Positions 29,492 through 33,030 of a DNA stretch of 37,116 bases are shown here, one piece after another. Position 1 is the first letter of the stretch; each line of letters begins with the position of its first letter. The DNA is from an uncultured Desulfomonile sp. (GTDB lineage Bacteria > Desulfobacterota > Desulfomonilia > Desulfomonilales > Desulfomonilaceae). Under the pieces are notes generated by a model, which saw only the letters and a program-made list of their open reading frames with translations, did no database searches and was not told the DNA's origin. Position numbers and translations under genes: made by a program. Location: contig CAJBEZ010000074.1 in the NCBI GenBank assembly GCA_903952205.1, positions 10,001-47,116 of the forward strand. Direction: 5' to 3'.

Positions 29492-32464
29492 TCAGGTGGA
29501 TTCGCCATATTTATCGGTGTCACAAGAGCCAAGTGATTCTGGAAAGTCCCATTTAACGGGGATCCTCACGGTTTGGCCGTCCCTACGTTTATATTTCACA
29601 AAACCATTTTCAACTGCGAAATTATAAAGATCTCTCGTAATGATGACGTCGTCTGTGCAGTATTTCTGAAGTAAATCGAGACGGCCCTCACGAAACCATC
29701 GAGGCGCGTCTACTCCACTTCCACTTTTCTTACGGCCAAGCGTGAATTGCGCCAGATGGTCCAGGCTTAACCGATGTCCTATCAGTTTCTGGATTTCAAT
29801 CAGCATGTCCAGATTCTGGTACTTTCTAAGGTTCTCATTCGTATATGCGCTAAGCACTTCATAATCGAATTTCACCTGATTGAATCCTACAATCAGATCA
29901 GCCCTAGACAAAGTTCTTACCAGTTCTCCAACCGACTCTTCATTAAAGCTTTGGAATCCCTCAACGTCGGAATATGTAACCGCCACTGACAGCATCATCT
30001 TGGATATATTTCTCCATCCACCCACATCATCAGCCAGTTTTTGGGTTTCTAGATCGAAAAACACGATTTCCGGAGAAGGTTCTTTATTGACATTCATAGC
30101 AATTTCCTTAATTGGGCAGGGAGTTTCACCCCTTGAAACCTGATCGACCGTTTCGACGGAAACACCCGCATGTTTGTAATGGACAGGCGATGACTTCGCC
30201 ACAAGTGTTTTACGTTGACTTGACAAAGTGTTGGGATGCAGAAGATAATCAAGGATTGCCTCACAGGCTTTCTTGTCGAGTGGTTTGTTCCCTGATCCGC
30301 ACTTCGGAGAATGGATACAGGAAGGACATCCTGTTTCGCAATGGCATCCTTTGACCATGTCAAAGGTCGTCCGCAAAAGTTCTTCAAGAACATCGAAAGC
30401 CTTGCTTGAGAGACCAACGCCTCCAGGATGGCCATCGTAGATAAATACAGCCGCTCTGCAAACCTGTTCATGTTCCGGACAACTAATACCACCGATGTCG
30501 TCGCGTTCACAAAGAGCAAACAGGGGAAACATGGAGATAGCAGCGTGTTCCATCGCATGTATGCCTCCTATGAAATGAAGGCCTGACGCCTTTATTGCCT
30601 GTTTGACCTCATCAGAAATTTCTATCCATAGTCCTATTGTCTCAAATACAAGCGGTGGAAGATTGAGATCCAAAACCCCAATCAATTCTTGACCTCTTGT
30701 CCGTCGCTTTTCATAACCGTTAACATGCTCTGTAACTCTCAACCTGGCTTCTCTAGCCAAAAAACCGGAAAACTCGCGAGACCTCAACGGAGCTCCAAGG
30801 ATTTTAGTGTCTTTTTCAGACCTTGATCTGGTGTAGTAACTTGCGGTGGAGGGCCTGACAAAGACGTTTCTCCTCTCCATATCAAGTTTTGTAACCACAT
30901 ATTGTTTTGTTCTGTGGAGATAAATTGCCCCTTCATGACATTCATGAAAGACTCTTGCGCCCGAAGATACCCCAATGGGTTTAGAGCCTCCCTCGAGGAA
31001 TATGGAATAAGAATTCCCGACATTTCTAAGATCTACCTCTCTATGAGGACGAGGGTTGACGGACATTACCGCTCCATCGGGGGATCGGTAAATAATCCCG
31101 TCATCCATCAAGGAGTCCATGGCTCTTTGCGCTTCTACTGGCCTAATCCAGCGTTCGGAGGGTTTTATGGGGATCTCAGCGGCGGCGCAGGGAATATGCT
31201 TTTTTAGAACCTCGACGTTTAACGGATCCAGCGTCGCCTGTTCACATGGGCGAGCAAAAAAATCGGACGGATTGCGAATAAAATATTGGTCAAGAGCGTC
31301 CTGACCAGCCACCATGACGATTGCGCTCTGACGCCCCTGTCTTCCGACGCGGCCACCTCTCTGCCAGGTGTTTACAATTGTGCCGGGATAACCAACCAGA
31401 ATGCAAAGATCCAGACCACCGACATCAATGCCCATTTCCAGGGCTGAAGTAGAAATGACTCCATCGAGTTCTCCTGAAAATAATCTTGATTCGATTTCAC
31501 GCCGTTCTTCGGGTAAGAAGCCTGCCCTGTAAGAACTTATTCGGTGTCTCAGGCGAGGGGCTTCATTCATAGCCCACAAAGTAATGAGTTCGGTGATCTT
31601 TCTAGATCTCGTGAACACTATCGTCTTAAGCCCGGAGTCTATGGCTCTGACGAAAAGCGATGAAGCTACCGTATAAGGGCTCAATAAGGGGTTTAGAAAT
31701 ACGAAGTGTCTCTGAGGAGAAGGGGCCCCGGATTTGTCCACCACGCTAACTTCATCACTGATCAACGAGGAAACGAACTGCCCGGGATTCCCTATGGTGG
31801 CTGAACAGGAGACAAACGTGGGCTCATTTCCATAAGAACGGCAAATTCTCTTTACTCTGAGCAAAACCTGAGCCACATGGCTTCCAAATATGCCCTTGTA
31901 GGTATGAACTTCATCAAGAACGATTAAGGAAAGTTTCCTGAAGAAGCGCATCCATAATTCATGAAAAGCCAGCAAACCGAGGTGAAGCATATCTGGATTG
32001 GTGATAAGAACTTTGGGAGGGCTAGACCGGATCCGTTTCCGCTCGGATTCAGAGGTGTCTCCATCGTAAATCGCTGCGCTAATTCCTGTCTTCTCGGAGA
32101 GATTCAGAAACGAATCCAGTTGATCCCTTTCCAGTGCTTTAAGAGGGAACAACATCAACACGTGGGAATCCGGCTCTCGGACAAGTCGATCCAATGCGGG
32201 AATTTGATAACACAGAGTTTTCCCACTCGATGTGCTGGTAGAAAGAGCTACGTTCTTTTTCTGGAGGGCCTTTTCAATGGCGTCAACCTGGTGACAATAC
32301 AACGATTCTATCCCGGTCGAATCAATAAGATCTTTTATGGAGAAATGAAGATTATGGGGAGTTTTTTTGAATATAGGGGTTTTTTCGGGCAGGATTTCGT
32401 GATGAACTACCTCCCAATTCGTTCCAGCGCTCTTTCTAAGCCATTCTAAATAATCGTTAACCAA
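29492..32464 (-). CDS. DEAD/DEAH helicase with DUF1998 zinc domain fused to DEDD exonuclease (MrfA-MrfB-like)
   Basis: 990 residues. RecA domain 1 has STSTSSGKT (75-83), DEVH (184-187) and SAT (221-223). RecA domain 2 has ALEMGIDVGG and QRGGRVGRQG (368-377). A DUF1998/MZB-type region with Cys cluster C707, C709, C713, C716, C722 (CHCETGCPSCIHSPKC) follows, as in Bacillus MrfA (YprA). After a linker (about 745-797), residues 798-950 form an RNase H-like exonuclease with DEDDy residues D804 and E806 (FFDLET), D867 (GFNQVKFDYE), and Y935/D939 (YCTDDV), as in MrfB (YprB). In Bacillus these are two adjacent genes acting in mitomycin-lesion repair. Here they are one chain. Start is at 32464; an unknown gene lies 83 nt upstream. 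Confidence 0.92.
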   Translation of the reverse strand: MVNDYLEWLRKSAGTNWEVVHHEILPEKTPIFKKTPHNLHFSIKDLIDSTGIESLYCHQVDAIEKALQKKNVALSTSTSSGKTLCYQIPALDRLVREPDSHVLMLFPLKALERDQLDSFLNLSEKTGISAAIYDGDTSESERKRIRSSPPKVLITNPDMLHLGLLAFHELWMRFFRKLSLIVLDEVHTYKGIFGSHVAQVLLRVKRICRSYGNEPTFVSCSATIGNPGQFVSSLISDEVSVVDKSGAPSPQRHFVFLNPLLSPYTVASSLFVRAIDSGLKTIVFTRSRKITELITLWAMNEAPRLRHRISSYRAGFLPEERREIESRLFSGELDGVISTSALEMGIDVGGLDLCILVGYPGTIVNTWQRGGRVGRQGRQSAIVMVAGQDALDQYFIRNPSDFFARPCEQATLDPLNVEVLKKHIPCAAAEIPIKPSERWIRPVEAQRAMDSLMDDGIIYRSPDGAVMSVNPRPHREVDLRNVGNSYSIFLEGGSKPIGVSSGARVFHECHEGAIYLHRTKQYVVTKLDMERRNVFVRPSTASYYTRSRSEKDTKILGAPLRSREFSGFLAREARLRVTEHVNGYEKRRTRGQELIGVLDLNLPPLVFETIGLWIEISDEVKQAIKASGLHFIGGIHAMEHAAISMFPLFALCERDDIGGISCPEHEQVCRAAVFIYDGHPGGVGLSSKAFDVLEELLRTTFDMVKGCHCETGCPSCIHSPKCGSGNKPLDKKACEAILDYLLHPNTLSSQRKTLVAKSSPVHYKHAGVSVETVDQVSRGETPCPIKEIAMNVNKEPSPEIVFFDLETQKLADDVGGWRNISKMMLSVAVTYSDVEGFQSFNEESVGELVRTLSRADLIVGFNQVKFDYEVLSAYTNENLRKYQNLDMLIEIQKLIGHRLSLDHLAQFTLGRKKSGSGVDAPRWFREGRLDLLQKYCTDDVIITRDLYNFAVENGFVKYKRRDGQTVRIPVKWDFPESLGSCDTDKYGEST

Positions 32465-32547
32465 TGCGACAAATCCGGGTGTGTGTTTTTCATCGATACC
32501 TAGGAGGGTAAAATGAGTTTTCCGTGTAGCCTCTCAAACATAACAAT

Positions 32548-33030
32548 CTAATGTGATGTTTCCCGATCCCATTCGGGAAAAATCAGCATCTGACCAACCA
32601 CTACGGCGTCCTCACCCTCTATCATTTCATGAAACGAATATACACGACCAAGCCCATTCCTTGCATACTTCTGCATGACAACGTAAGGTTGACCACCCTG
32701 TATCGAAGTCGCCAATACGAGCGCCTCTTCACCAGCGCCAGACCTGCAATCGATAACGATGGAATTGGTTATAGTTGTTACCGCATAAGCGTTTTTCTCC
32801 AGCGCTTCCTTTTTGACAAACTCGACGACCTCTTTTTTCTCATCCGGATTTTCGTAAGACATTACTATAGGAAAAAAACCTGATACAGTGTGAAGAATTG
32901 CAGTAGGGCTATGGGTTCCCGACAGCTGTAGAGTTTGACGGGCAATCGGAGCAATTTTTCGCACTGATTCGACAATGATTTCTTTAACGGCTATAATCTT
33001 GGTTAGAATGATAAGAGGTTCAATGTTCAT
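32548..33030 (-). CDS. Hypothetical protein, unknown function
   Basis: 160 residues with no signal peptide or membrane segment. Alternating alpha/beta character: a helical start (IIVESVRKIAPIARQTL), strands in TAILHTVSGFFPIVMSY, then EKKEVVEFVKKEALEKNAYAVTTITNSIVID and QPYVVMQKYARNGLGRVYSFHEMI, ending in VVVGQMLIFPEW. The start has GAGAAAGAATT a few nt upstream. It lies 83 nt before the helicase gene on the same strand and may share its transcript. I do not recognise a family. Confidence 0.75.
   Translation of the reverse strand: MNIEPLIILTKIIAVKEIIVESVRKIAPIARQTLQLSGTHSPTAILHTVSGFFPIVMSYENPDEKKEVVEFVKKEALEKNAYAVTTITNSIVIDCRSGAGEEALVLATSIQGGQPYVVMQKYARNGLGRVYSFHEMIEGEDAVVVGQMLIFPEWDRETSH

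Follow-up and report, generated by a model that had tools for sequence, protein, structure and literature searches.

MrfA and MrfB (also named YprA and YprB) of Bacillus subtilis, the products of two genes, are the closest described counterparts of the gene considered here. MrfA, like SftH, has been described as a 3'-5' helicase, and its partner MrfB as an exonuclease of the same polarity (PMC12458937; PMC11194089); MrfB is of the DEDDh type (His258), and MrfAB is reported to act independently of UvrABC (PMC11194089). Complementation reportedly requires alleles that are closely related (PMC12458937). A fusion of the two activities is already in print in passing: a single clause of a preprint by Bell et al. 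(2025; PMC12458937) mentions YprA helicases "fused to" homologs of MrfB/YprB, and the available sections of that text neither treat the nature of the fused exonuclease, which they do not distinguish from MrfB, nor say in which phyla it occurs. Those fusions probably include the architecture described here, that of a gene at 29492..32464 (minus strand) in a 37,116-nucleotide stretch of DNA from an uncultured Desulfomonile sp. (GenBank assembly GCA_903952205.1, contig CAJBEZ010000074.1, positions 10,001 to 47,116 of the forward strand), hereafter the window. It encodes a single chain of 990 residues in which an MrfA-type helicase is followed by a DEDDy exonuclease of the PolB-proofreading type, a cousin of MrfB—of the same superfamily but of a different subfamily.

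Two further enzymes invite comparison by layout. Human WRN likewise carries a 3'-5' exonuclease and a helicase in one chain; it is a RecQ-family helicase with a DEDDy-type exonuclease at its N-terminus and unwinds and trims the same strand from the 3' end, and the likeness to the present protein is one of analogy, not of kinship. Staphylococcus aureus DinG (SaDinG) also joins an exonuclease and a helicase in one chain, but its N-terminal exonuclease is of the DEDDh type and its helicase polarity is opposite. The parts of the Desulfomonile gene are as follows.

29492..32464, minus strand: whole helicase-exonuclease gene, 990 aa, open frame from a plausible TTG start to the stop
31790..32293, minus strand: DEAD/DEAH helicase domain (RecA1), residues 58-225, with Walker A K82 and DEVH 184-187 (Pfam PF00270, E 1.8e-29; motifs)
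31334..31639, minus strand: Helicase_C (RecA2), residues 276-377 (Pfam PF00271, E 2.8e-16)
31022..31228, minus strand: Hrq1-type winged helix (WHD_HRQ1), residues 413-481 (Pfam PF22982, E 4.8e-7)
30314..30550, minus strand: MrfA zinc-binding domain (MZB, DUF1998), residues 639-717, with C707, C709, C713 and C716 (Pfam PF09369, E 2.8e-23)
30080..30229, minus strand: poorly conserved linker that connects the helicase to the exonuclease, around residues 746-795, roughly 50 residues (alignment with L006 and L007, the loci of a same-genus relative and of an Acidobacteria record)
29621..30064, minus strand: predicted DEDDy 3'-5' exonuclease domain, residues 801-948, with D804, E806, D867, Y935 and D939 (Pfam PF13482, PHROG 403, structure model and PolB-family fold match)

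Judged by its sequence, the helicase half is a complete YprA/MrfA-type SF2 helicase, as an earlier reading of the DNA letters alone (the original prediction) had claimed. The SF2 core is complete, with Walker A (K82 in SSGKT), DEVH from 184 and motif VI (QRGGRVGRQGR) from 368, and the best match in the PDB is YprA (6znp, E 1.7e-133, residues 18-719). Along the protein, the Pfam domains run in the order DEAD, Helicase_C, WHD_HRQ1, MZB and RNase_H_2, each above its curated cut-off, so that both domains for which the original prediction had proposed a search, MZB (DUF1998) and RNase_H_2, are present; MZB reaches 82.8 bits against a cut-off of 24.2. The predicted cysteine span C707-C722 is found as described, but the zinc set within it is C707, C709, C713 and C716 (CxCx3CxxC), and C722 is an additional cysteine.

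For the exonuclease half, 36 fused domains were aligned and made into a profile. The positions of D804, E806, D867, Y935 and D939, all of which had been named correctly at the outset together with K82, are identical in 36/36 of these domains, giving the DEDDy signature. All 36 members match RNase_H_2 (PF13482) at E ≤0.1, and at the same threshold 34 match DNA_pol_A_exo1 (best 7.4e-8) and 33 match DNA_pol_B_exo2 (best 8e-7); the window's own domain gives E 9.4e-9 and 35.9 bits against PF13482, compared with 120.7 bits for a YprB-like protein (L054). A comparison with phage families linked the fused domain to PHROG 403 ("DNA polymerase exonuclease subunit"; E 1.6e-15). An RNase_H_2 search of the whole own genome listed two other, stronger places and not the fused domain, and neither a phmmer search of the PDB nor an NCBIfam scan with the isolated exonuclease domain gave anything but noise.

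Modelling of residues 795-976 gave a confident structure (pLDDT 93.6), in which the catalytic Tyr lies within a long helix (135-159 of the modelled fragment); a Tyr inside a long helix is the arrangement of DEDDy enzymes, according to the available part of PMC11194089. The top rows of a fold search of the PDB are PolB-family polymerases, namely 5mdn (Z 14.9, rmsd 3.7, 164 residues aligned, over a range that extends past the exonuclease domain) and, level with it, 8s87 (Z 14.8, rmsd 3.2, 159 residues aligned over 132-344). The modelled fold is like that of a PolB-family proofreading exonuclease domain, but identity is 14-21% among the best 50 rows and the 990-residue protein contains no polymerase. 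Among viral proteins, the best match by fold has 214 residues (TM 0.79 relative to the query, 26% identity), which is also the length of the exonuclease of Bdellovibrio phage phi1422.

That both domains lie in one polypeptide, as originally predicted, is seen in the 990-residue open frame and recurs in many other genomes. In a set of 40 relatives plus the own genome, searched at E ≤1e-20, 34/41 genomes are matched. The window's own family accounts for 18 of the 41 (own genome included): in 15 of these, helicase and exonuclease share a single frame, a contig start truncates two (G003, G004), and G008 is without a match; in the other family of the class, 17 of 23 genomes are matched, and the helicases there are without the exonuclease. 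A wider sample of the phylum (297 genomes; cut-offs E ≤1e-8 for the exonuclease and E ≤1e-60 for the helicase) has the exonuclease domain in 85 genomes and the helicase in 130, and 83 of the 85 exonuclease-bearing genomes have helicase and exonuclease sequence in one open frame, some of them as pieces (contig ends interrupt G283, G239 and G066, and stops interrupt the helicase part of G088). The other two are G322, with pieces on two contigs, and G261, with a stand-alone exonuclease of 219 aa. In the second phylum, to which the Acidobacteria record belongs, 31/149 genomes match at E ≤1e-10: 23 in frames of at least 945 aa, with helicase sequence in the flank of 12/12 such loci searched; seven as stand-alone frames of 172 to 702 aa, with no helicase match in the 8 to 13 kb examined for each; and one (G419) as a 64-aa fragment at a contig start. 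Because the same one-frame fusion occurs in many other genomes, including those of a second phylum, a frameshift, an assembly join or a chance frame is ruled out. The survey of fused and split forms that had been proposed with the original prediction confirms that the fusion is real and widely conserved across two phyla.

The exonuclease domain occurs fused and stand-alone side by side, because the own genome holds a stand-alone 182-aa DEDDy exonuclease with 52% identity over residues 790-973 (contig C12, 59384-59932; L002, 1501-2049) and a genome of the same genus (G006) holds, besides the fused gene, a second copy in a 295-aa frame. Stand-alone relatives are also present at no fewer than nine viral loci, in stop-to-stop frames of 133-242 aa, the 133-aa frame ending ahead of the last motif; no YprA helicase match was found in the surrounding stretch of the nine viral loci listed. 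Annotated phages gave three weak matches, two of which are records of the phi1422 "putative exonuclease" (30.3% identity, E 2e-4), and among plasmids the exonuclease domain had one weak match. The PHROG 403 subunits are the best sequence-family match of the fused domain; neither they nor small phage exonucleases such as that of phi1422 have a YprA helicase joined to them.

A tree of the helicases (61 rows, 60 of them different, midpoint root) gathers the 42 fused rows in one clade with support 98/96. The only row inside it labelled as unfused is L154, whose frame stops at a contig end just past the zinc domain. The sister group consists of seven unfused relatives; none of their genomes is among the 85 that bear the exonuclease, and no exonuclease match was found at their loci. 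The position of L007 and L124, two rows on long branches, is less certain. The simplest reading of the tree is a single fusion event for this helicase clade. In our preferred explanation, that event would have joined MrfA to a small free-standing exonuclease whose family phages also carry, and not mrfA to mrfB; the direction of domain transfer is one that we infer.

The name MrfB-like, given to the exonuclease in the original prediction, holds for its RNase_H_2 family and for a remote homology to YprB-like proteins, but not for MrfB itself. Searched against the PDB at E ≤10, the 36-domain profile does not have MrfB (8un9) among its eight matches, all of them weak (best E 0.19; one, at E 0.23, is a 3'-5' exonuclease-like "ancestor of diDNase"), whereas a smaller, 13-member profile of the YprB-like family finds 8un9 at E 2.1e-8. 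As a further control, the own genome's separate 289-aa YprB-like protein (contig C98) retrieves MrfB as its only PDB match (E 0.014); this protein matches no PHROG at E ≤0.01, whereas the fused domain has its better match in PHROG 403. The two systems share a YprA-type helicase with MZB and a DEDD 3'-5' exonuclease of the same broad family; they differ in that B. subtilis has two genes, with a DEDDh site and a TPR tail in MrfB, whereas the present chain is one, is DEDDy and gave no TPR in a Pfam scan, 42 residues remaining after the RNase_H_2 match. One of the 36 aligned members shows a TPR match, at chance level (E 0.066). Because there is no MrfB profile match, the site is DEDDy, no TPR is found, the PHROG 403 and PolB matches are better and a separate YprB-like gene exists in the genome, the gene is probably not Bacillus mrfA and mrfB joined together.

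A true mrfA-mrfB fusion would require the exonuclease to be a fast-changed MrfB orthologue that has lost its TPR tail and N-terminal part. The Pfam family that it shares with MrfB, a profile-level link to the YprB-like family and the clause of Bell et al. quoted above (PMC12458937, available sections) all speak for such an origin, which we nevertheless hold to be rather unlikely in view of the profile, PHROG and own-genome results just given and of the loci surveyed: none of 10 stand-alone exonuclease loci had a helicase match that would make an adjacent but separate pair, and none of 20 loci with YprB-like genes had one (about 1.5 kb covered on each side). Several observations weigh against our preferred reading, that of a different exonuclease acquired once. 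The profile-level link just mentioned, obtained by aligning the 36-domain profile with the YprB-like family (hhalign probability 92.9, E 3.6e-7, 15% identity), amounts to remote homology, and PolB proofreading domains are reported to be among the nearest structures of MrfB too (PMC11194089); because of both, the fused domain differs from MrfB only in degree. Tyr is likewise present in the stand-alone YprB-like proteins of the phylum (13/13), for which reason Tyr versus His was dropped as a sole separator from MrfB. The helicase scores 673 bits against TIGR03817 (putative DEAH-box helicase, hypothetical equivalog), below the curated cut-off of 874.1, and by the count of the tree tool the fused label changes twice instead of once, owing to the contig-end row L154. 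The structure prediction first proposed for the whole chain succeeded for the exonuclease fragment but not at full length, where the model, made from three sequences, is poor (mean pLDDT 42.4) and was not used, the relative placement of the domains not being derivable from it. Two other points were set aside: L810 corresponds to the Leu wedge of MrfB (D+6), but Leu is found in only 25/36 members; and the absence of MrfB from the best 50 rows in either PDB fold search points neither way, as these are the top rows only and MrfB was solved in an inactive form. We see an even chance that MrfA-type helicases gained a DEDD exonuclease at least twice, as the neighbouring DEDDh MrfB gene in Bacillus and, in the Thermodesulfobacteriota/Acidobacteriota clade, through one fusion with another exonuclease, of the phage-type proofreading kind, in a WRN-like layout.

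An antiphage helicase-nuclease akin to ARMADA, TALON or Druantia, which have C-terminal nuclease domains, would fit with the fused nucleases that the YprA helicases of several defence systems bear (PMC12458937, available sections) and with the occurrence of exonuclease relatives on viral contigs. It is nonetheless improbable: the helicase part is short, with about 742 aligned residues where the own genome's Druantia-like protein has 1616 aa; the PADLOC matches look like those of a general helicase, the best among the best 25 of 46 matches being 151.4 bits to BrxH over 41-381; and the C-terminal RNase H domain of TALON YprA is described as inactivated (PMC12458937, available sections), whereas the fused domain retains all five catalytic residues in every aligned member. 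Genes for MutS2-, DnaG- and RpoD-type proteins, which are housekeeping genes, lie in the window 8 to 14 kb from the helicase-exonuclease gene, and this chromosomal setting weakly favours housekeeping over defence. Least probable of all, and to our mind very improbable, is an enzyme that processes RNA or hybrids. The DEDDy fold also includes RNases D and NrnC, and the DNA_pol_A_exo1 family, matched by nearly all of the aligned members, also includes RNase D; yet by fold and by PHROG the exonuclease comes closest to DNA polymerases, and the helicase belongs to a DNA-repair family.

Other relatives in the own genome (G000) may be recorded here. The YprB-like gene on contig C98 (L049, 1243-2112) encodes a DEDDy protein with a weak helix-hairpin-helix match, and its neighbours within 3.4 kb are, by eye, methyltransferase- and amine oxidase-like, with no YprA helicase. 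Contig C99 (L050, 520-3531) carries a 1139-aa frame, 1004 aa of it inside the locus, with an RNase_H_2 match of 117.5 bits and, by eye, a helicase-like second half; it may be a RecB-like nuclease-helicase of the TM0106 type. On contig C12, a 333-aa frame upstream of the stand-alone exonuclease looks RmuC-like by eye, and 2-4 kb downstream a WYL regulator and an ARPP-1 protein are encoded. The Druantia-like protein is a YprA-type helicase on the same contig (L118, 3348-8195), matches DruE1 (726 bits) and lies some 11 kb away from the stand-alone exonuclease. On contig C48 (18327-18641; L053), a 624-aa frame contains a third MZB (DUF1998) match; it might be a split DrmB-like protein, though the name is a guess.

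At the 5' end of the helicase-exonuclease gene, the start codon position is TTG, preceded by a CCGGAT/CCGGAAT stretch, in the window and in 4/4 genus relatives compared (L006, L009, L010 and L011), and a TTG start is plausible on this comparison. A 15-codon ATG frame at 32446-32493 (minus strand) overlaps this start out of frame; L006 is without an ATG at that place. Directly upstream lies a 160-aa gene (32548-33030, minus strand) with no Pfam match at E ≤0.1, which was rejected as a conserved partner, as a relative of it occurs in only two same-genus loci, beside the helicase, among eleven other-genome loci compared.

On the computed domains, intact catalytic residues, fold, spread and single helicase clade, a mode of action may be proposed, of which we infer the polarity, coupling, substrate and repair role. 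Like its relatives, the YprA/MrfA-type motor would presumably travel along single-stranded DNA from 3' to 5', and the linker would tie it to a 3'-5' exonuclease of the PolB-proofreading type. Because both activities would run 3' to 5', the exonuclease could trim the 3' end of the strand tracked or opened by the motor, for example in clearing a damaged stretch after unwinding. The most likely role would be the processing of chromosomal DNA damage in a manner analogous to MrfAB. We favour, with moderate confidence, a single-chain DNA helicase-exonuclease for DNA damage that works in an MrfAB- or WRN-like way and in which MrfA is joined to a different exonuclease.

A single chain that occurs in nature and holds the two activities at 1:1 would be a convenient protein for probing how helicase and exonuclease are coupled in MrfAB. 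Furthermore, the fusion would point to evolutionary conservation of the partnership between an MrfA-type helicase and a 3'-5' exonuclease, and not of one particular exonuclease family.

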